Positions 816 through 56,216 of a stretch of DNA of 64,000 nt are shown here, in pieces. Each line of letters starts with the position of its first letter. The stretch's first letter is position 1. The translations under genes and the position numbers were made by a program. Source of the DNA: Tridacna crocea (lineage: Eukaryota > Mollusca > Bivalvia > Cardiida > Cardiidae); the NCBI GenBank assembly GCA_943736015.1, contig OX031065.1, positions 40,624,427 through 40,688,426 on the forward strand. The letters run 5' to 3'. Under the pieces are notes generated by a model. That model made no database searches. It saw nothing but the letters and a program-made list of their open reading frames with translations, and had not been told where the DNA came from.

Positions 816-957
816 CTGAAGGAAGAAATAAACATCAGGGTTGAAATAATGGGTTGGATCAGAATACCACAAACAAAATATTGTCGAGGGAAAAAAGTAA
901 ATAACATTTTTACATGGAAAAAAAAAAGAAGACCAGAAGAAGAAAATGTAACCAGTT

Positions 958-1052
958 ATGGATGCGCCTCGATCTTACAGTCCAATCTCATTACGTTAAA
1001 AAAATGAATTTGAGTAGGCAGCGTAACCGACTGCGCTACCCACGCTTCATCT
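958..1052 (-). mobile_element. Possible second tRNA-like SINE fragment
   Basis: The minus strand reads GTGGGTAGCGCAGTCGGTTA, which looks like a tRNA D-arm / A box, followed about 60 nt later by a weak B-box-like GATCGAGGCGC. No target duplication or tail could be fixed. It could be a degraded tRNA gene rather than a SINE. Confidence 0.35.
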
Positions 1053-1921
1053 AATGACGTAAAGTTTAAGGTACATGTAGTTTATTTTGATGATTCAGTT
1101 CTTAACATCGCCCTCGTTATATTAGACTCCCAAGAAAAACACAAATAGCAGGTACATCTTCCATATATTAGGGTTTAAACTACCTAACATTAACATTTGC
1201 GGGATTTGTTTTCGAGTAAAGTTCTACCTTTTTTTTCCCATTTCGTAGTGATCACTTGTTGATGCGGCCATAGACCTACGAGGCTGCATTTAAGGTTGAG
1301 AATAAAAAATAAACTGAAATGGAAACAAAGCTAGGTTTGCAACATTGTGTTTTGAAAACATCTTTGAAATCAGAAATGCAACTTAGGCTTTATATCGATA
1401 AGAGTAAACTTACCTCCATAACGATGTCTTTCTCGGAAGGTGGGGGTTTACATAAATTTCCTCTCCAGATTTATGGCTTCACATGCAAATGACTCGTATC
1501 AAAAAGAAATTTTATAACATTGGTCATTCAAACAAACGATAACTTCTTATAATAAATAAATTTTCAGTGGAAACAGATGTCTTTTTACATCAAAATTCAA
1601 GATTTTTCGCATACACTCTTATCGACTATTTTTAGATAAACATGTGACGATCACAAAATTGATGACGTAACTTTGAACCGCAATATCTCTACGTCACAAC
1701 TCGACGCCTTAAGGCACCTTTTCCCAGATCCGCGCTCATATGTATTCAATTGAAATCGGTATAATTGGACATGAAACATATGGGTATCATTTGCTTTAGA
1801 CCAAGATCAAACTATATGGAAATATAGGCTAATCCTGGTTTATTATCTTCGCGAAGGACAAAGAGGTTCGATAACCATTCAATACGAGACTGATCTCTTT
1901 GAAGAATTAACAAAATACTTT
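1053..1921. other. No recognised gene or repeat
   Basis: AT-rich sequence with no frame, splice pair or repeated unit that I can support. Confidence 0.5.
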
Positions 1922-2336
1922 TTAAACCATTAACACACAATCCCAATTTTTGACGACCCTGAGAAAGAAGCCTTCAGAAAATATTGTGGGAAAAGTAGAA
2001 AATGCTGGTAACCAGCATTTTCTCCTTTTCCCATAATGTTTTCTAGTCTTCACAAAACAAATTTTAAAATTTCAAATTCTAACATTTCACTTTTATTTTG
2101 TCGTCTGCAAATGCTTTCGATTTGGACTAGCCTTTTGAGGACCATGAGAAAGAAGCCTTTAGAAAATATTATGGGAAAGGGAGAAAATGCTGGTAACCAG
2201 CATTTTCTCCCTTTTCCACAATGTTTTCCACTCTGCACAAAACAAAATTCAGATTTTCAGTCACTTTTTATTTTGTCGTTTGCAAATGCTTTCAAGTTGA
2301 ACAAACCTAGAATATTGTCGTTTGGTAAAGAGTTAA
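1922..2336 (+). mobile_element. PBM1 head-to-tail dimer
   Basis: Definition of the family used below: PBM1 starts TTAACCC(T/A)TTACCACACAATCCC (end L) and finishes with ...GTCGTCTGCAAATGCTTTC...GTCGTTTGGTAAAGAGTTAA (end R), with a central hairpin around GGAGAAAATGCTGG. Plus strand means L to R. Here two units are fused: the first keeps L and its hairpin (about 1990-2040), then at about 2133 the sequence jumps back to GAGGACCATGAGAAAGAAGCC without a new TTAA end, giving a second hairpin at about 2168-2222 and one shared R end. Confidence 0.85.
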
Positions 2337-2657
2337 ACTTAATCTGAGGGTTACCTCTACCCGGTGTATTTATTTGGGTCATGCTATGGCACAAAGGGTT
2401 TTGATACATCTCTCTGTTCCATGTTACACCCGGTAAGTTATCACATAATCCCGGATCCATACAAACCATCGTGTTTAATAAGCTGCTGAATCTCGGGATA
2501 GTATAGTCAATAGACATGCATGAAATTTACCAAATGCTTTCGACTCAGGTCAGCTCGTGAAGACTTCGCAGAACCAGGCTTGATACTTTTTGAGCGTGCA
2601 TTAAACCTTCTTTTCAAAGAGCATTCCTCACATTACATAATGTTATAATTCGAAGTC

Positions 2658-2883
2658 TTAACCCTTTCCCAAACGACAAATTTTAGACTTCCAAACCTCA
2701 AAAAGTCTCCAGACGACAATTTCAAATTTGATAATAATGGCAGAAAGTTCTCCAAACGGGTAGAAAACACTGTGGGAAAAGGAGAAATTGCTCGTTACGA
2801 GCAATTTCTCCTTTTCCCACAGTGTTTTCAAAAGACTTGTACTGCAGACACGTAAAAACAAGGGCTTGTTTGGAAAGGGTTAA
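2658..2883 (-). mobile_element. PBM1b: full copy with variant hairpin core
   Basis: TTAA at both ends and CCCTTTCC(A)AAC terminal repeats. The hairpin core is GAAATTGCTCGT/ACGAGCAATTTC rather than GAAAATGCTGGT/ACCAGCATTTTC, so both arms carry the same substitutions. Confidence 0.85.
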
Positions 2884-3544
2884 GGTAGTAGACCCGTGAC
2901 GCTTCTAGTGCAGTATGGAATAAAATTCCTTGATAGTTGAGGAAATAGTAGCATTAGATTTCTAAATGATAATTCTTAGAAAGGTAAAAAGGAAAAAAAT
3001 ATATATATATACCAGTATATAGCTCAGTTCAAGTAGTAGATTTACAACAATACTACTTTTTAATCATAGAAAATTTTGTAGGATAACAGATCTACATGTG
3101 TTATAGTGGAAATAGCTGTTTTCTATTACAGGTCCGCGACCTTAAAACAAGCTACTAATTGGTTGACAATGAACATCTAGTCCGAACGACTAATTTCAAA
3201 ATTTAGAGCTAGATCAATACTTCTTAATTGTTATAATGTGGATCCTTCGGCCCCCTTGAAACCCTACTTTGTAACAAAGGCTGTAAACTTTGTGACCTGA
3301 AATTCATATCACGTGCATAGTGTATGTTATGTGAAAAAAAAGCACGCGCACGCGTGTCGAGGTTATTTTTTCGTTCGTCCGCCTCCTGTCTTTTAGATTT
3401 CATTCATTCGTATATTGTCTTTTTGCACGTCGAACTTTCTTATCTTAAAACATTGTACCGGGTAAACCCGATATCTACTACCTTGATATACTATTCTTTA
3501 ATCTCTACAACTATTAACCTTTACAACTTAATTCCGCGTTTATC
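2884..3544. other. No recognised gene; short TA repeat
   Basis: Contains a short (TA)n run near 2998-3012 and otherwise nothing I can place. The longest forward open stretch here (3324-3560) shows no domain and runs into the next MITE. Confidence 0.5.
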
Positions 3545-3748
3545 TTTTACCAAACGATAACATTTAAGAACAGTCCAAATTGATAGCATTTGCAGACCAC
3601 TAATGACATTCTACTCAAAAATTGATTCTTGTTATGGGAAGAATAGAAAACATCGTGAGAAAAGGAGAAACTGCTCGTTTTCCTACAATATTTTGAAAGA
3701 CTTTTCCTTGGAGCCGTTATAATTCGGGACTGGGGAGCAAAGGGTTAA
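3545..3748 (-). mobile_element. PBM1, degraded
   Basis: R end TTACCAAACGATAAC is present at the left and GGGTTAA at the right. Most of the right hairpin arm is lost. Confidence 0.65.
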
Positions 3749-6490: not shown

Positions 6491-7735
6491 AAGAGGGCCA
6501 TGATGGCCCTGTATCGCTCCACTGGCTAATAAGTAAAAACACTACAAGCCAAATATTACAGTATTTGGCCAACTGGTTTCAAACTTGAGGACATACAATT
6601 TTTTTCTATAAAATTCAATGAGAAAGTTGTGAGCACCTCCCCCCCCCCTCCCTGTTAAACCCAATTTTGATCTCAAAGCTTTAGTTGCTTGAATCCTGGT
6701 GGAGGTCTACAAGATAAAGCCCCTTACCAAATATTACAGGTCTAGAATGTGTGATTATAATCAAGAAGATTTCAAAGATTTTTTTTCAAAAAAAAAGGCA
6801 CTGTAAAACATAAAACCCATGAGGAAGGGCTAAATATAGTGGTTATGAGCACATGTAAAACTTGTGACCCCCAGGCGGGGTCAAATTTAATCCCACGGCT
6901 ATAATATTTGGGCACTTTTGGTAGACAACCACTTGATAAAGCTAGATGCAAAATTGAGTAGCCCCAGGCGTTATGGCTTGGTACGAGAAGATTTTTTAAA
7001 GTTTTCCTCATATTAAAGTCCATGTAAAACTTGTGACCACCGGTGCTGGGCCAAATTTGACCCCTGGGCTATCATTTAGGCACTCTTAGTAGCGGTCCAC
7101 TAGATAAAGCTACAAGTCAAATTTGGTAACCAAGGCCTTATGGCTAGGTACCAGAAGGATTTTAAAGTCTTCCCCATATAAGCCCATATGAAACTTGTGA
7201 CCCCCAGGGCCGAGCCAAATTTGACCCCTGGATTATCATTTAGGCACTCTTAGTAGAGGTCTACTAGATAAAGCTACATGCCAAATTTGGTAACCCTAGG
7301 CCCTATGGCTAGTTACCAGAAGGACTTTAAAGTTTTCCCTATATAAGCCAATATAAGACTTGTGACCCCCGTGTCGAAGCTAATTTTGACCCCAGGGCTA
7401 TTATTTGAAGGAACTTGGTAGAAGTCTACTAGATAAAGCTACATGCCATATTTGATAGCTTTAGGCCTTATGGTTTCAGAGAAGAAGATTTTTAAAAAAT
7501 TTTCAGTTTTGTTGCCATGGCAACCAGAATTTTTGAAGGAATCAATTTTTTTCAAGGAATTCTAAAGAAGACTATGGCAGCATTATTTCTGTGAAGTTTC
7601 ATAAAAATTGGATTGGTAGTTTCAGAGGAGAAGATATCTGAAATAAAAGTTAACGCACGCACGGACGGACGGACGCACAATGGACACCGGGCCATGACAT
7701 AAGCTTGTTGGACTTCGGCCAGTGGAGCTAAAAAC
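6491..7735 (+). mobile_element. GGGCCATGATGGCCC / CTCACC-type mollusc repeat with 160-bp internal tandem units
   Basis: It begins with the small palindrome AGGGCCATGATGGCCCT plus TATCGCTC and ends GGACGGACGGACGCAC...CAGTGGAGCTAAAAA. The interior (about 6850-7490) repeats a unit of about 163 bp four times; each starts near AACTTGTGACCCCC and ends TTAAAGTTTTCC. No frame is conserved across units, and the whole appears non-coding. Related copies are at 13794-14610 and 53912-56216. Confidence 0.6.
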
Positions 7736-8010
7736 GAATTAACACTATACGACACTGCAATGACGACAAAAACAACTCAAAATATGAAACTTAAGGCCCC
7801 AATGGGGGCCAACTTAAAACCAAGCAGCTATTGAAAAACATTTGAATTTAATTATATCATCCTTATTCAAGTATGGACTTTCTTGTAAAGAAGACAATTT
7901 ATTATTGTACAGTCGGTCTAAGTGTTCGTGGTTGGTAAAAAAAAAAAGAATTTACGTGAAAAGTAAACAAAAGATAGAGCGACCTTGCAACTTTTGACCT
8001 ACTTTTCAAT

Positions 8011-9026
8011 TCATCGTTCTACCAGCAACTCGGACCGACCGTACAAAATTTATCATTCTACCAGCAACTCGTACCGACTGTACAAAATTCATCTTTCTAC
8101 CAGCAACTCGGGCAGACTGTACAAAATTCATCTTTCTACCAGCAACTCGGGCCGGCCGTACAAAATTCATCTTTCTACCAGCAACTCGTACCAACAGTAC
8201 AAAATTCATCTTTCTACCAGCAACTCGTACTTCCTGTATGAAATTTATCGTTCTACCAGCAACTCGTACCGACTGTAAAAAATTCATCTTTCTACCAGCA
8301 ACTCGGGCAGACTGTACAAAATTCATCTTTCTACCAGCAACTGGGGCCGACCATATACGAAATTTATCATTCTACCAGCAACTCAGGCCGACTGTACAAA
8401 ATTTATCATTCTACCAGCGACTTGGGCCGACCATATACGAAATTTATCATTCTACCAGCAACTCGGGCCGACTGTACAAAATTTATCATTCTACCAGCAA
8501 CTCAGGGCCGACTGTACAAAATTAATCATTCTACCAGCAACTCGTACGACCTTACAAAATTTATCTTTCTACCAGCAACTCGGACCGACCGTACGAAATT
8601 TATCTTTTTACCAGCAACTCGTACTAACCCTACTCATTTTATCTTTCTACCAGCAACTCGTACCGACCGTACAAAATTTATCATTCTACCAGCAACTGGT
8701 ACCGACCGTTTGAAATTTATCTTTCTACCAGCAACTCGGGCCGACTGTACGAAATTTATCTTTCTACCAGCAACTCGTACCGACCGTACAAAATTTATCA
8801 TTCTACCAGCAACTCCTACCGACCGTACAAAATTTATCATTCTACCAGCAACTCGGACGGACCCTACGAAATTTATCTTTCTACCAGCAACTCGTACAGA
8901 CCGTACAAAATTTATCATTCTACCAGCAACTCGTACCGACTGTACAAAATTTATCATTCTACCAGCAACTCGGACCAACCCTACAAAATTTATCTTTCTA
9001 CCAGTACATCGGACTGACCCTACAAA
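8011..9026. repeat. 39-bp minisatellite, 26 units
   Basis: Twenty-six units built on TTCTACCAGCAACTCG followed by TACCGACCGTACAAAATTTATC-like sequence, period about 39 bp. The GTACC / GGACC / GGGCC position after AACTCG varies between units. Because 39 is a multiple of three and the unit lacks stops in some frames, both strands stay open for long runs, e.g. 8422-9072 (+) and 8634-9044 (-). No start context, signal peptide or splice site supports a gene. Confidence 0.9.
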
Positions 9027-9511: not shown

Positions 9512-9729
9512 TTAACTCATTACCAAACGACAATATTTTAGACTGGTCCAAATTGAAAGCATTTACAGACGACAAAATAAAAGTGACTGAAAATTTGAAA
9601 TTTATTTTGGGAAGGGTAGAAAACATTGTGGGAAAAGGAGTAACCAGCATTTTCTCCTTTTCCCACAATGTTTTCTATAGGCTTTTTCCTCAACACGTCA
9701 AAAGTAGGGATTGTGTGGTAATGGGTTAA
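9512..9729 (-). mobile_element. PBM1 with asymmetric hairpin deletion
   Basis: Both TTAA ends are intact, but the left hairpin arm lost about 11 bp (GGAGTAACCAGC where GGAGAAAATGCTGGTAACCAGC is usual). The right arm is perfect. Confidence 0.85.
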
Positions 9730-9757: not shown

Positions 9758-9946
9758 GCCGGTGTAATACAGAGAAAAATCCCTCCCCTACAAAATGACC
9801 CATTGGTCATTTCACTATGCAGAATAAATGATCCTGGGATGATTTCTCTACGTAGAATAATGACCCAGGTCATTCCTCAACGTAGAAAAATGACCCATGG
9901 GTCATTTTGTAGGGGGGCGGGGGTCATTTCTCTGCATTACACCGGC
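9758..9946. mobile_element. GAC element, complete
   Basis: Inverted ends GCCGGTGTAATACAGAG and CTCTGCATTACACCGGC enclose repeated palindromes of the type AATGACCCATGGGTCATT, separated by short TACGTAGA-like joints. Other copies are at 13159-13348 and 25767-25936. Confidence 0.75.
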
Positions 9947-13793: not shown

Positions 13794-14610
13794 TTTTTAG
13801 CTCACCTGAGCAACAAGTGCTCATCCGTGTCTGTCGTCCAACATCTGTCGTCCAGGCGTCAATATTTACCTCGTTTGCACTATATGCCACAGTGTCAGGT
13901 ACTCATAACATTTGGTCGGATTGTTTGTCTTGATGATATTGCGGACAAGTTCAAAATTTTGGGTTAAATAGTTAAAGAAGCTTGTGTGGACTCTACAAAA
14001 CTCTTTCTTAGTCCGATACGCTTGATACTTGGTCAGGACGTTTATCTTGATAATATCTTGGAAAAGTTGGTCATGTCACTTTGTCAGTTACTCATAAGTT
14101 TTGGAGGGATTGTTTGTCATGATATCTCGAACAAGTTTAGAATTTGGTCACGCCGAGTCAAAAAATAGGTCATAGAACGAAATCCTAGAAATTTTGTGCA
14201 CTCTTTCCGAGGCCATAATATGGAGTGCAACACGCGAAAAGGGCCATTCGGACATTTGCGTAAAGTGTCATCTCGGATCAGCGTCTGCAGTCCGCACAGG
14301 CTAATCCTAAACGATACTTTCTGATTTTATGTGATTTTCTGTTTTACGCAAGTCTACTGTAGCACAAAATCTAATGTAGTCGTAAAGTGCCGTCTCGGAT
14401 TAGCCTGCGAGGACTGCGCAGGCTAATCCGGGACGACAGTTTACTCAAATTTCCGAATGCACCTTTTGGCGTGTTGCACTCCAATTATGAGGCCACATTT
14501 TCGGCCTGGGGCTGTTAAAGATATGTCAGAATATCTGTCTTGATGATAGTAAAGACAATCATGTAATCGAGTTTTGTGGGGTCAAAAATCTCGGGGCTAA
14601 ATCTTAGAAA
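13794..14610 (-). mobile_element. CTCACC-type mollusc repeat, interrupted by a TH element
   Basis: It starts TTTTTAGCTCACCTGAGCAA, followed by CGTCCAACATCTGTCGTCCA and the repeated phrase TTGTTTGTCTTGATGATAT...GACAAGTT. The TH element at 14217-14488 splits it at GAGGCCA. The open frames at 13676-14168 are parts of this repeat, not a gene. Confidence 0.65.
14217..14488. mobile_element. TH element inserted in the CTCACC repeat
   Basis: Inverted ends TGGAGTGCAACACGCGAAA / CGTGTTGCACTCCA enclose both hairpins. The 7-mer GAGGCCA occurs at 14210-14216 and 14489-14495 (8 bp if one mismatch is allowed), a likely target duplication in hAT-like size range. Confidence 0.8.
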
Positions 14611-15416
14611 AACCTTGTTGGTGGTCTTACTTCGTATTTGATCGTTAGTATTTAATTCATTCTTTGATAATTATCAAAACAGAACTGTTCTATTCCATTC
14701 ACTTTAATGTTAAACTCCCTGTTTTATTAGAGGAGGTATCAATATGTCCTTGAATATTTAGATTAATTACAGACCTATCATAACTTGACATAAAAAGTTT
14801 TGAGAGATATATTCGTCACGCCTTTATGTATAAAACCGCTTCGTGATTTATGAGTCAGTCAACTTTAAAGCACTTTAACTATTTCGTTTTCATCTAACTG
14901 ATATACAGAATTCCCAGACGGCCACTCCTTGCATGGTAGGTCACATATGTGCGGCATTCTGGGAGACATAGAGAATATTTGTTTTTTTCGGTGAAAGATC
15001 GAAATTTATTTCATCGAGTGGACACCATCGGTAATATATTCACGAGTGGCGCAGCCACGAGTGAAAATATTACCGATGGTGTTCACGAGATGAAATAAAT
15101 TTCGATCTTTCACCCAAACAAAACAAATATTCTATTTATTTCATGCTTTTAACCCTTTCTGGGAGGAGCTTTATCAAAATTCAGTACATTTCTTTTCCCT
15201 TATTCCCCGTGGCGTACCCCTCCCGCATAGCAACGTTACGTCAAGCGCGAGAAATGTAAGGTACGTGGGGTGATCAAAAAGATCGTGGACTACCTCGTTA
15301 TTTTGAAAACTACTACACGTAGAATTACAAGATTTTGCATAGATGAGCACCAATTATGTGGTAACTGGCTCAAGCTTTCAAATGTCGTTATATTCAGGTA
15401 GGTAAAGTATGACGTC

Positions 15417-22682: not shown

Positions 22683-22914
22683 TTTAAACCCTTTCCCAAA
22701 CAATCCCTGGTTTTTACGTGTCAGGAATAGAAGCCTTTTGAAAACATTGTGGAAAAAGGAGAAAATGCTGGTAACCAGCATTTTCTCCTTTTCCAACAAT
22801 GTTTTCTATCCTATCATAGTAGAAAAATCATCTTTTTAGCTACTATTAATTTGTCATCTGCAAAATGCTTTCAATTTGGTCTGGTCCAAAATTTGACGTT
22901 TGGGAAAGGGTTAA
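22683..22914 (+). mobile_element. PBM1, full copy
   Basis: TTAAACCCTTTCCCAAAC left and TTTGGGAAAGGGTTAA right. Belongs to a subgroup with TTTTTACGTGTCAGGAATAG on the L side and ATCATCTTTTTAGCTACT on the R side, shared with 43119-43347 and 46514-46742. Confidence 0.9.
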
Positions 22915-27061: not shown

Positions 27062-27276
27062 TTAACCCATTACCACACAATCCCTACTTTTGACGCCCCT
27101 GAGAAAAGAGCCTTTTGAAAACATTGTGGGAAAAGGAGAAAATGCTTTTACTTTTCCCACAATGTTTTCTACCCTTCACAAAACAAATTTCAACTTTTCA
27201 GTGACTTTTATGTTGTCATCTGCAAATGCTTTCAATTTGGACCAGTCTAAAATATTGTCGTTTGGTAATGAGTTAA
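27062..27276 (+). mobile_element. PBM1 with shortened hairpin
   Basis: Both ends are perfect. The hairpin centre has lost about 14 bp (GAGAAAATGCTTTTACTTTTCC), leaving an otherwise intact copy. Confidence 0.9.
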
Positions 27277-27430: not shown

Positions 27431-27732
27431 GATTTTTCAAACAAAAAAAAATCGGTGTATCTTTGGGGTTTTTTTTACTTTTGGGCTATATTTTTTTTCT
27501 TTAACCCTTTGAGTGGCATAGGGGAAAATTGAAGTTTTTACGGCTGGCACAGGTCAAGAAATGCCTGTATAGAAAATGTAGAGTGATCTTGGATAGATGA
27601 GTTCTGCTGGCGAAGCCAAGCTAAAATGAATACATTTTTTTTAGTACCATGCGGTGGATTATACTTTTAGCCGTCGAAAGAGCTTGAGATTATAAATTTG
27701 GTGCAAAAATAGTTCACTACAGTAGTTTAGCT

Positions 27733-27880
27733 ACACAATCCACCATTTTAACTGCCCCGAGAAAAAGAAAAGCGATTTTGAAAACATTATGGGGAAAAAA
27801 GAAAATGCTGGCAATAAGCATTTTCTTCTTTTAACATAATGTTTTCAACTCCTTGAAAACCTTTTGATCTAAATCCACTT
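27733..27880 (+). mobile_element. PBM1, degraded
   Basis: ACACAATCCACCATTTTAAC, GATTTTGAAAACATTATGGG and hairpin GAAAATGCTGGCAATAAGCA. The R half is lost. Confidence 0.55.
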
Positions 27881-27892
27881 TTTGAGCAAGAC

Positions 27893-28121
27893 TTAACCCA
27901 TTACCACACAGTATCAACTTTTGACGACCCTCAGAAAGAAGCCCTGAGAAAACATTGTGGGAAAAGGAGAAAATGCTGGTAACCAGCATTTTCTCCTTTT
28001 CTCACAATATTTCCTACCCTTCACAAAATAAATTTCAAATTTTCAGTCACTTTTATTTTGTCTTATGCAAATGCTTTCGATTTGGATAAGCCTGAAATTT
28101 TGTTGTGTGGTAATGAGTTAA
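27893..28121 (+). mobile_element. PBM1, full reference copy
   Basis: TTAACCCATTACCACACAG...GTGTGGTAATGAGTTAA shows the best-matched terminal repeats of the L/R type. The hairpin is nearly perfect. A broken R-end piece follows to about 28190. Confidence 0.9.
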
Positions 28122-38777: not shown

Positions 38778-39413
38778 CTATAGAAACCCATGGCTGTCTT
38801 GTAATATAATGTCTAAATGAAAGCATATCATGGTTCTTTGGTTCAATGTAAGGATAAGTGAATTAATACAAATACGATTTGGCTCAGTAATTTTATGAAT
38901 CCAAACCATATCATGCTTCTTGGGTTCAATAAATGGACAAATGCATTAAAATAAACACGGTTTGATAATTTGAGGAATCCAAACAATACCGTACTTATGT
39001 GGTCCAATATATGGACAAATGGATTAATATAAACACAGTTTGGTTCACAATTTGACTAACCCTTTACCCCATAAGGCATTTCTATGGTATCTCTAATTGA
39101 TCCTAAATAACAGCAAGGATGAAGCTGTTTCTTATGTGTATATGGCACCTTTTGATAGCAAAGAAAACATTGTGACAAAAGGTGAAATTGCTCGTCACGA
39201 GCAATTTCACCTTTTGCCAAAATGTTTTGCCAAAATGTTTTCCAAAGGCCCCTACAAGCAATGCGTAGAAATGAGTATCTATGGAGTAAAGGGTTAATCC
39301 AAACAATACCATGCATCTTTGGTTCAATAGATAGACAAATGCATTAATATAAACCAAGTTAGTGCAATGAACTGTAATAGAACGATATAAGACAGCCATG
39401 GCTTTCCATAGAC
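38778..39413. repeat. About 79-bp tandem repeat bounded by inverted repeats, with a PBM1b insertion
   Basis: Four units of CCAAACAATACCRTGCTTCT...ATGGACAAATGCATTAATAT (38820-39056 and 39299-39375) lie between CCATGGCTGTCTTGTAATAT and its near-inverse ATATAAGACAGCCATGG. The MITE at 39055-39297 separates units three and four. Confidence 0.7.
39055..39297 (-). mobile_element. PBM1b, inverted twin of 39662-39889
   Basis: CTAACCCTTTACCCC left and GTAAAGGGTTAA right. Hairpin AAAAGGTGAAATTGCTCGTC with its inverse. The right arm contains a duplicated CAAAATGTTTTGC. The flanks inside the element (ACAGCAAGGATGAAGCTG) are unlike ordinary PBM1. Confidence 0.85.
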
Positions 39414-39661: not shown

Positions 39662-39889
39662 TTAACCTTTTACTCCACAGATACTCATTTCTACGCACTG
39701 CTTGTAGGAGCCTTTGGAAAACATTGTGGCAAAAGGTGAAATTGCTCGTGACGAGCAATTTCACCTTTTGTCACAATGTTTTCTTTGCTATCAAAAGGTG
39801 CCATATACACATAAGAAACAGCTTCATCCTTGCTGTTATTTAGGGTCAATTAGAGATACCATAGGAATGCCTTATGGGTAAAGGGTTAA
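39662..39889 (+). mobile_element. PBM1b, inverted twin of 39055-39297
   Basis: TTAACCTTTTACTCCACAGA left and GTAAAGGGTTAA right. Hairpin GGTGAAATTGCTCGTGACGA. The body (CATCCTTGCTGTTATTTAGG) is the reverse of the other twin. Confidence 0.85.
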
Positions 39890-39904: not shown

Positions 39905-40079
39905 TTAACCCTTTACCAAACAATCCCTTGTTTTTGCGACCCTGAATTAATTGCCTTTTGAAAACATTGTTGGAAAAGGTTTTCTTCCCTGTTGGAAACA
40001 AATTTCAATTTTTGAATTACGTTTATTTTGTCTTCTGCAAGTGCTTGCAGTTTTTTTTTTTCGTTTGGTAACGAGTTAA
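39905..40079 (+). mobile_element. PBM1 lacking the hairpin
   Basis: TTAACCCTTTACCAAACAAT left and GTTTGGTAACGAGTTAA right are intact, but the sequence jumps from TTGTTGGAAAAGG to TTTTCTTCCCTG, removing about 45 bp of palindrome. Confidence 0.9.
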
Positions 40080-43118: not shown

Positions 43119-43347
43119 TTAACCCTTTTCCAAACAATCCCTGGTTCTTACGGGTCAGGAATAGAAGCCTTTTGAAAACATTGAGGGAAAAGGAGAAAAT
43201 GCTGGTAACCAGCATTTTCTCCTTTTCCCACAATGTTTTCTACCCTACCATATAGAAATATCATCTTTTTAGCAACTGTTAATTTGTCATTTGCAAAATG
43301 TTTTCAATTTCATCTGGTCCAAAATTTGCTGTTTGGGAAAGGGTTCA
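43119..43347 (+). mobile_element. PBM1, full copy
   Basis: Same subgroup as 22683-22914 and 46514-46742. Near-perfect hairpin. Confidence 0.9.
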
Positions 43348-46513: not shown

Positions 46514-46742
46514 TTAACCCTTTCCCAAACAATCCCTGGTTTTTACGGGTCTGGAATAGTAGCATTTTGAAAACATTGTGGGAAAAGGAGAAAATGCTGG
46601 TAACCAGCATTTTCTCCTTTTCCCACAATGTTTTCTAGACTATCATAGACAGAAATCATCTTTTCAGCAAGAGTTGAATTGTCGTCTGCAAATGCTTTCA
46701 ATTTAGTCTAGCCCAAAAGTTTGTTGTTTGGGAAAGGGTTAA
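46514..46742 (+). mobile_element. PBM1 with the cleanest hairpin
   Basis: 46570-46601 and 46603-46634 are exact inverses (32 bp each) around a single A at 46602. TTAA ends at 46514 and 46739 are intact. This is the best copy for defining the structure of the family. Confidence 0.95.
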
Positions 46743-53911: not shown

Positions 53912-56216
53912 CAAGAGGACCATGATGGTCCTATATCGCTCACCCGAGTACCAAACAAAAAGGTCTACGATGAAGATAAATTTCAAAAGGCCAAATGATA
54001 ATGAAACAAGAGCGGCAAATTGTCGCAAGATATGCCCATCCCATCACCAGTTGTCAAGGAGGTATGATAATTACAAAGGCCAGATAAACGAACATGTTGA
54101 TCAAGTCTCTAATCAGTTTGACTTGAGACTTCAAAGCTCCATTCCGGACCAGCAAAAAATACAATAAAAATGAAGATCGAATGGGAATTGCTCAAAAACC
54201 GCTCTAGGTACTGTTCTTGCGCATAGTACCGGGAAATATAGCAACAAACATGCGTAGCAAGTTTGAAGTCCTTCTGACCCAAGATGACAAAGTTATATTC
54301 CAGACAAGCACTAAACACCGTAAAACTGACGATCGAAGGGAAATAATTCAAAACAGCATGAGGTAGAGTTAAAATGCTTGTGCACAACACTTCCAAATAT
54401 TGCAACAAACAAGCATACCGTATTTCAAGTCATTCCTACTTAAGATGACAAAGTTTTGCTCCGGACAAGCAAGAAATGCTATAAAAATGAAGGTCAAAGG
54501 GGGAATAACTCAAAATTCACGTTAGGAAGAGTTATCGTTCTTGTGCCTAGCACTTCGTAATTTTTAAATCATGCATACAAAATTTGAAGATGTTCAGGCT
54601 TGAGATGACAAGGTTATATTCCGGACAAGCAGAAAATGCTAAAGAAATGATGGTCAAAGGGAAATAACTCATAGACATTATGAAGTAGAGTTATGGTTCT
54701 TTCACAATGCATTCTGTATTATTGCAACAAACACAAAATGCCAAGTTTTAAGTCAATTGGACTGTAAATTATCCTCTGGACAAGAAGTTTTTCTACAGAA
54801 CTTTCTCATTCACGGGCAAATAACTCTTGTCGTTCTGGTCTGATTAGAACCATCAGCGAAGTCAGATATTCTAAATACATGTATTATAATCTTATATATT
54901 TTGACCAAGTTTGGTGCTGATTGGTTGATATTTAAAGATGCTAGAGTGTAAACAATGTCTAATATAGTAATTTTTATAATTCAAGGGCAAATAACTCCAC
55001 TCGTTCTGATTATACCCATTATTAAAGTCATCCTAGATCTTATAGTTATACATATTCTGACCAAGTTTGGTGCTGATTGGTTGATACTTATAGACCCTAG
55101 AGTGTAAACAAATATAGCAGTTTTTCTCATTTATGGGCAAAATCTCCACGTGAAATCCGAGACCAACAATATAGGGCTAATTTTCACACAAGGGCCATAA
55201 TTTGAAGTATTTAAGTAGAGGGCCACTATATGATACTACATCCCAACTATGTAAGCAATAGCCCTACGGTTTGCTACAAGAAGATTTTTAAAGACTTCCT
55301 TCTTTATCTCTATGTGAAATCCGAGAACCCACAACATAGGGCCATCTTCAACACAAGGGCCATAATTTGAAGTATTTTGGTAGAGGCTCACTAGATGATG
55401 CTACATGCCAAATATGAAAGCTCTAGCCCTTACGGTTTGGGACAAGAAGATTTTAATAGATTTCCTTCCTTATCTCTATGTGAAATCCGAGAACCCACAA
55501 CATGGGGCCATTTTCAACACTAGGGCCATAATTTGAAGTATTTAAGTAGAGGGCCACTATATGATACTACATCCCAACTATGTAAGCAATAGCCCTACGG
55601 TTTGCTACAAGAAGATTTTTAAAGACTTCCTTCTTTATCTCTATGTGAAATCCGAGAACCCACAACATAGGGCCATCTTCAACACAAGGGCCATAATTTG
55701 AAGTATTTTGGTAGAGGCCCACTAGATGATGCTACATGCCAAATATGAAAGCTCTAGCCCTTACGGTTTGGGACAAGAAGATTTTAATAGATTTCCTTCC
55801 TTATCTCTATGTGAAATCCGAGAACCCACAACATGGGGCCATTTTCAACACTAAGGGCCATAATTTGAAGTATTTTGGTAGAGGGCCACTAGATGATGCT
55901 ACATGCTAAATATAAAAGCTCTAGCCCTTACGATTTGGGACGAGGAGAATTTTAAAGTTTTTTCTTTCGGTTGCCATGGCAACCAGAGTTCTTCAAGGAA
56001 TTCAAATTTTTGAAGTATGCAGAAAGTGCATTACCTAAGGATTATTTCTGTGAAGTTTCATTGAAATCTGACCGGCAGCTTCAGAAGAGAAGATTTTTTT
56101 AGTAATTGTTTACGGATGGACAGACAGACGGACAGACAGACGGTGGACAACGACCGATCACTATAGCTCACCCTGAGCACTTTTTGAGCACTATGTGCTC
56201 AGGTGAGCTAAAAAAA
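53912..56216 (+). mobile_element. CTCACC-type mollusc repeat, long copy
   Basis: Begins AAGAGGACCATGATGGTCCT then TATCGCTCACCCGAG and ends GAGCACTATGTGCTCAGGTG then AGCTAAAAA. From 54000 to 54780 it repeats a phrase of about 150 bp (GATGACAAAGTTATATTCCG, GGACAAGCA). From 55150 to 55930 it repeats units of about 165 bp (CTCTATGTGAAATCCGAGA). No conserved frame. The class is unknown to me, though the ends are widespread in mollusc genomes. Confidence 0.65.
55203..55864. repeat. 331-bp direct duplication inside the CTCACC element
   Basis: 55203-55533 and 55534-55864 agree at all but about two positions, while each half (about 165 bp) is only moderately similar to the other. This is a recent unit duplication. 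Confidence 0.85.

Follow-up and report, generated by a model that had tools for sequence, protein, structure and literature searches.

A 64,000 bp stretch of the Tridacna crocea genome (contig OX031065.1, positions 40,624,427-40,688,426; hereafter the window) is densely filled with copies of a short repeat, PBM1, and raises the question of what this element is, how it has been moved, and what keeps the hairpin at its centre intact. The assembly comprises 1,048.8 Mb in 31 contigs, of which the 18 largest total about 1,048.4 Mb. PBM1 is almost certainly a non-autonomous miniature inverted-repeat transposable element (MITE) of the piggyBac superfamily, and it very probably makes up roughly a fifth to a quarter of the genome. 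The overall explanation presented here, in which a piggyBac MITE has its partner among two autonomous transposons, E and F, and its hairpin is kept intact in source copies, is one that we consider probable.

Structure and classification of PBM1

The reference copy and its parts are the following:
46514..46742, + strand: PBM1 reference copy, 229 bp with both TTAA counted in
46514..46532, + strand: 5' TTAA and terminal inverted repeat (TIR), TTAACCCTTTCCCAAACAA; inverted repeat, 19 nt, 100%
46724..46742, - strand: 3' TIR and TTAA; partner of the 5' repeat, 19 nt, 100%
46569..46601, + strand: left arm of the central hairpin; inverted repeat, 33 nt
46603..46635, + strand: right arm of the central hairpin; 33 nt, 100% complementary to the left arm

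The central hairpin of this copy is a perfect palindrome with 33-nt arms and a 1-nt spacer (67 nt in total); an earlier note on the window had the spacer right and gave the arms as 32 bp. The copy is a member of the CCCTTTCCCAAACAA subfamily and carries TTAACCCTTTCCCAAACAA at both ends. Across the family, the consensus of the 5' side is TTAACCC(T/A)TTACCA, and the 3' side read inward is often TTAACTC(T/A)TTACCA or else TTAACCC, with CTC in place of CCC at many 3' ends and some 5' ends. PBM1 has no transposase, as none of the listed genome matches (at least 118) to PF13843 (DDE_Tnp_1_7, the piggyBac transposase domain) falls inside the window.

The proposed placement among piggyBac-type MITEs was borne out by the TTAA duplications, the end motifs and the presence of a PF13843 partner in the same genome. 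The available sections of PMC10813416 give CCCTT/CCCAT as piggyBac end motifs, which the CCC(T/A)TT ends of PBM1 fit. It is extremely unlikely that PBM1 belongs instead to Kolobok, the other TTAA-targeting superfamily, or to an unrelated TA-targeting one. Kolobok likewise makes TTAA duplications and occurs in molluscs, but its termini (as for KolobokP) are 5'-RR and YY-3' in the part of PMC9587614 that was accessible, whereas PBM1 starts with CCC; additionally, PBM1 has a 38-bp end in common with element F, which carries PF13843. Kolobok and other TTAA families were thus rejected as the class of PBM1 on the basis of its ends and its partner.

Abundance in the window and across the genome

A family profile built from full copies was used with a cut-off of E<=1e-3, and an overlap of up to 30% was tolerated between pieces counted as non-overlapping. 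In the window it identified 69 such pieces covering 11,938 of 64,000 bp (18.7%), so that the density reported in the earlier note was upheld and its count of 55-60 copies was too low.

For the genome, 32 stretches of 3 kb on 18 chromosomes were sampled in two sets of 16. The first set contained 21.3% PBM1 (56 pieces, 29 of them full) and the second 30.5% (88 pieces, 40 full), giving a pooled share of 25.9% with a bootstrap 95% interval of 19.7-32.1%; extrapolation to the genome yields about 270 Mb and about 1.5 million PBM1 pieces. The share per 3-kb sample ranged from 0 to 59% and the places were picked by hand at round coordinates, both of which could speak for a density that is local or an artefact of the sampling or the profile. 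Such an explanation is nevertheless very improbable, given that 18 chromosomes were sampled, that 28 of the 32 stretches had PBM1 at E<=1e-3 (4 had none), that the pooled share was still 20.7% at E<=1e-20 (23.9% at 1e-10 and 13.4% at 1e-40), and that the profile gave 0 matches on ten Markov-shuffled windows. To our knowledge, a quarter of a gigabase-size genome would be among the largest shares held by one DNA-transposon family. The 32 samples also contained 23 pairs of neighbouring PBM1 pieces no more than 8 bp apart, several with one common TTAA, as if each insertion created targets for the next.

Target sites and recent mobility

Four further copies in the window are relevant here:
43119..43347, + strand: PBM1 copy of a second young subfamily, about 88% overall identity to the 46514 copy, 1 arm difference to the consensus in 66 positions
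22685..22914, + strand: PBM1 copy, profile match
27893..28121, + strand: PBM1 copy nested in an internal TTAA of another PBM1 copy, the left part of which begins at 27731 and the right part of which lies beyond 28121
27731..27892, + strand: left part of this target copy, profile match

Among 40 candidates scored, the 46514 copy had at least 39 other genome matches at 97-98% identity, and the first 20 of the 39 listed relatives were fetched with their flanks to form, together with the 46514 copy, a set of young copies. All 21 measured exactly 229 bp and carried TTAA on either side. The 43119 copy similarly had at least 39 siblings at 95-98% identity (40 candidates scored), and near-identical young subfamilies are spread over many chromosomes. 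Duplications other than TTAA, named earlier as a finding that would speak against a piggyBac origin, were not seen for PBM1. Flank similarities among the young copies run through other repeats, many of which are further PBM1 copies. Two young copies on different chromosomes (L017 and L020) are 86% similar in their right flanks for about 123 bp, starting at the element edge; no comparable match of their left flanks was among those listed.

The nested copy at 27893-28121 is a direct picture of TTAA insertion: when it was removed and its flanks were joined with one TTAA, a continuous profile match (78-226, E 4.4e-17) was obtained. In the window and the first sample, 52 full-length copies had TTAA near both ends in 25 cases, near one end in 18 and near neither in 9, compared with a background in which TTAA lay within 4 bp of a random place in 6.8% of trials. 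That only 25 of the 52 keep both TTAA weighs against the target-site evidence; such loss is expected of old copies, and this expectation is not proof.

Candidate autonomous partners

The earlier note had proposed a search for a piggyBac transposase with the same ends. In a genome search with PF13843, for which 116 of 196 candidates were scored, at least 118 matches were obtained, 26 of the best 30 had no internal stop, and several piggyBac families with TTAACCC-type ends could be delimited. Two of these, E and F, have open PF13843 frames and TTAA/CCCTTT-type ends, and one of the two, F, has 38 bp in common with the 5' end of PBM1, so that the search was successful. The partner belongs to the piggyBac superfamily; one from another superfamily, which had been named as a possible refutation, was not seen.

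Element E is a 7,203 bp transposon with a 492-codon open frame and the ends TTAACCCATTACCG / TTAACTCATTACCAC. Two copies from separate chromosomes are 99.9% identical along almost the entire element, and five are 99.5-99.98% identical over the 4.1 kb that was retrieved initially. Of the six copies with both ends read, four (C5, C15, C3 and C18) are bounded by TTAA on both sides and differ in their flanks, and the other two have TTAA at one end. The E transposase matches the structures of piggyBat (9c0f, E-value 9e-40) and piggyBac (6x67, E-value 4e-36), and its aspartate-bearing segments VDE, FDNFF and GGVD, which we take to hold the DDD catalytic residues, align with piggyBat. Element F spans 6,376 bp between flanking TTAA sites, with these included, and has a 508-codon open frame and the ends TTAACTCTTTCCCACACAATCCCGACTTTTTACGACCC / TTAACTCTTTCCCACACAGACA.

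Comparison of the end sequences indicated that the 5' end of F runs on like PBM1 well past the inverted repeat. A genome search with the first 329 bp of F listed 40 matches, namely F itself, 11 longer matches, and 28 confined to the first 38-39 bp at 97-100% identity. Twenty of these 28 were fetched, and all 20 were PBM1 copies that the profile matched from its first column, for which reason PBM1 is tied to the E/F clade. Downstream of each of the 11 longer matches, a PF13843 match on the fitting strand lay no more than 10 kb away (two at about 9 kb). Additionally, several PBM1 pieces are nested in E, at positions common to the two fully read copies (L051 and L052), and the MITE therefore rides inside its own probable source, where its insertions are amplified within an autonomous element.

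Some observations weigh against this partnership and its target sites. The 3' end of PBM1 is like that of F over only about 20 bp; the E copy on C9 (L052) carries TTAA on the 5' side alone, with AATC following an otherwise intact 3' end (L052:7366-7376); and the E copy on C10 (L122), in which the 5' end is truncated, has TTAA at its 3' end only. Judging from the sequences compared, PBM1 would be moved by an E/F-clade transposase through cut and paste, and it may have originated from an E/F-type end joined to a foreign internal sequence.

Families A (2,765 bp, ends TTAACCCTTTATATAC), B (TTAACCCT(A/T)GTCATGC) and C (TTAACCCTTTCAG), as well as the loci L023 (TTAACCCATTTATGCC) and L050 (TTAACCCTCTAGA), were also considered as partners and rejected. 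Because these match PBM1 at the outermost bases only, E and F were preferred. Family A is a separate autonomous piggyBac of about 2,765 bp (L027, L028, L029 and L031, at about 868-3632 of the oriented locus); its four copies each lie on a separate chromosome, have a domain free of stops and are 99.86-99.93% identical, and the family has apparently been active very recently. Clusters of piggyBac transposase fragments, mostly broken, lie at C8:56.71-56.76 Mb and C13:4.48-4.61 Mb.

Conservation of the hairpin and its mirrored changes

The hairpin, spanned by 110 of the 144 sample pieces, is better conserved than the flanks, in agreement with the earlier note. In the window, the mean consensus-base frequency per column was 0.868 in the hairpin and 0.769 in both the left and the right flank. 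The same measure gave 0.883 versus 0.766 and 0.760 in 107 copies elsewhere in the genome, and 0.880 in the hairpin with 0.754 and 0.756 in the flanks for 157 copies, in which the terminal repeats (0.869 and 0.847) were about as conserved as the hairpin. The ratio of hairpin to flank in pairwise divergence was 0.45-0.77, and lowest at intermediate distances.

Changes in the two arms were often complementary. The null for such mirrored changes consisted of 500 shuffles within divergence classes, in which the relatedness of copies was not modelled; as the shuffles ignore relatedness, part of the mirrored excess is shared descent. In 138 copies, 86 complementary double changes were found versus 49.2 +- 5.4 in the shuffles, and in the genome samples without the window 53 versus 32.3 +- 4.6 expected, values that 0 of 500 shuffles reached in either case. 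With five PBM2-like copies omitted, 66 remained versus 42.1 +- 5.2. Most of the excess lay in change types found in several copies (63 versus 34.1 +- 5.7). We interpret the excess as joint change of the two arms in source lineages.

Some copies have lost part of the hairpin, including three in the window:
9512..9729, - strand: PBM1 copy with 10 hairpin columns deleted
27062..27276, + strand: PBM1 copy with 14 hairpin columns deleted
39905..40079, + strand: PBM1 copy without 42 of the 67 hairpin columns

Eight or more hairpin columns were missing in 11 of 101 full-length copies, and the 11 footprints differ by eye. For the 9512 copy, 37 of the best 39 other matches were at least 225 bp long (the remaining two were 219 and 209 bp), and the same held for the 27062 copy (remaining two 209 and 221 bp); the 37 longer matches in each case therefore lack the deletion. 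Broken hairpins are frequent, and subfamilies do not seem to descend from the copies that carry them.

A homologous hairpin outside PBM1

A second MITE family, PBM2, is represented in the window by two copies:
39662..39889, + strand: PBM2, with related TIRs, unrelated flanks and a homologous hairpin
39056..39297, - strand: PBM2 copy, outer end approximate

Further PBM2 copies were found at L056, L068, L072, L082 and L033. Between PBM2 and PBM1, the hairpin is identical at 57 of 67 positions and the TIRs, at 12/14 and 13/16, are about as alike, whereas the flanks (left 26/44, right 53/103) agree at the level of shuffled sequence. By our reading, 8 of the 10 hairpin differences form four mirrored pairs.

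A search of the outermost 330 bp of E and F did not recover the hairpin arm, the best match there having 14-16 mismatches in 33 positions, as in shuffled sequence; the possibility that the arm is a transposase site copied from the partner ends was rejected on this result. Pieces consisting of the hairpin only amounted to 10 of 249 in the window and L051-L086, and no TTAA-type ends were present within 140 bp of these ten, so that no third family was found there. Exact 20-23-mers of the hairpin had 0 matches in public viral contigs and matched nine contigs in bacterial records once each; the bacterial matches were attributed to chance, since two matches, one per arm, would be expected from an intact PBM1 copy.

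What keeps the hairpin

In the reading that we prefer, unproven and with roughly even chances, the hairpin would act in cis as a DNA module, and selection would preserve it in the copies that serve as sources. An intact hairpin could favour their amplification, for instance if it draws the two ends towards each other or shields the element. The alternative is that conservation and mirrored changes result from mutation and repair, either through template switching between the arms or through gene conversion among the many copies centred on hairpins. Several observations fit repair and weigh against selection in the sources as the whole account. Mirrored types present in a single copy exceeded the null (23 versus 15.1 +- 3.0), and in the 21 young copies hairpin singletons (5 of 36) were fewer than expected by length (p 0.044), which suggests that the hairpin changes more slowly even after insertion; in the same copies, polymorphic sites found in several copies occupied 0 of 67 hairpin columns versus 9 of 162 others (p 0.06). 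As selection on sources alone predicts neither the single-copy excess nor the singleton deficit, repair or copy-correction may contribute, and for these reasons we give selection no better than an even chance and regard copy-correction as a possible, less likely explanation. The extra deletions in the hairpin (gap fraction 0.037 versus 0.019) are likewise what hairpin-prone replication would give; they can also be assembly artefacts, and the four shorter relatives of the 9512 and 27062 copies, known by length alone, may have deletions in common with them, both of which weaken the argument drawn from broken copies. Against repair, however, stand the concentration of the mirrored excess in types common to several copies, read as inherited subfamily states, and the five hairpin singletons of the young subfamily, none of which was mirrored (four affect a single arm each, the fifth the spacer). 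Clearly different arms persist in many diverged copies, and conservation of the hairpin extends across PBM1 and PBM2 while the flanks align no better than shuffled sequence.

A hairpin maintained for its transcript, giving Dicer-type small RNAs as a regulatory product for the family or the host, appears rather unlikely. The predicted RNA fold of the element is very stable (minimum free energy -106.9 kcal/mol, z -13.5), but its DNA fold is similarly extreme (z -12.9) and the fold therefore does not favour RNA; an Rfam scan of the window found no family at its gathering score. Besides a Dicer-type substrate, the earlier note had suggested a fork-stalling structure, which would likewise be a putative role of a hairpin in an element that folds very strongly both as RNA and as DNA. 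Returning to selection in the source copies, a broader form of this reading is tentative: the 67-bp hairpin might be a transferable amplification module, acquired by piggyBac MITEs, present in families that are unrelated in the rest of their sequence, held in palindromic form by source-copy selection, and responsible for PBM1 having reached about a quarter of the genome.

Relation to published elements

No published account of PBM1 was seen among the papers listed in searches of one PMC library, as judged by titles and abstract openings. The nearest published case found is the CMITE group of Acropora corals, described here from the available sections of PMC2872659. CMITEs resemble PBM1 in being MITEs of the piggyBac type, in their TTAA duplications, in ends that are mostly CCCTTT and in forming tandem arrays. 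An autonomous piggyBac has the ends of one CMITE family without its internal region, just as the PBM1 hairpin was not found in the ends of E and F. Their internal region is more conserved between families than the TIRs; between PBM1 and PBM2, the hairpin is more alike than the flanks, which agree no better than shuffled sequence, and the TIRs match about as well as the hairpin does. A CMITE has a length of about 100 bp and the copy number is estimated at about 1,600, whereas PBM1 has 229 bp, a 67-nt palindrome and the far larger number of pieces extrapolated above. The main text of the CMITE paper contains none of the strings hairpin, palindrom and secondary structure.

Autonomous animal piggyBac elements, in the same sections of PMC10813416, share with PBM1 the TTAA target and the CCCTT/CCCAT motifs, and with E and F the transposase superfamily. 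Unlike them, PBM1 lacks a transposase; its partners are 6.4-7.2 kb long, and E contains nested PBM1 pieces. In bivalve genomes, non-autonomous DNA elements form a considerable share and MITEs were left without further classification, with no single family of PBM1 size described in the accessible part of PMC10294476. Altogether, PBM1 is of a kind already known, the piggyBac MITE, and it is the scale and the palindromic module, conserved with mirrored changes, that are unusual.

Other repeats in the window

Palindromes are not confined to PBM1, as 20 of 55 in the window and the first sample were part of other repeats. One palindromic repeat occurs at 15051, 15780 and 20305, with common arms ACACCATCGGTAATATT, and another has three copies at 14412, 53632 and 62712, with arms GTGCCGTCTCGGAT. 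A 39-bp unit is present in 26 tandem copies at 8008-9026, where several frames stay open on both strands. Two tandem arrays with a 165-bp period (6844-7473 and 55142-55957) have repeats that contain GGGCC, and tandem repeats containing GGGCC are typical of molluscs. At 9792, 13192 and 25803, a unit of 30-32 bp that carries AATGACCC / GGTCATT motifs forms short arrays.

Implications

If the abundance estimate is true, one 229-bp non-coding element accounts for about 200-340 Mb of a 1.05-Gb animal genome, a range set by the 95% interval of the pooled share. Since possible transposase sources with open frames remain, T. crocea would offer a natural system for what limits MITE amplification. The hairpin, present in two MITE families yet not found in the partner ends, is a concrete candidate for an amplification-promoting internal sequence, the question left open by the coral CMITE work in the sections available (PMC2872659).
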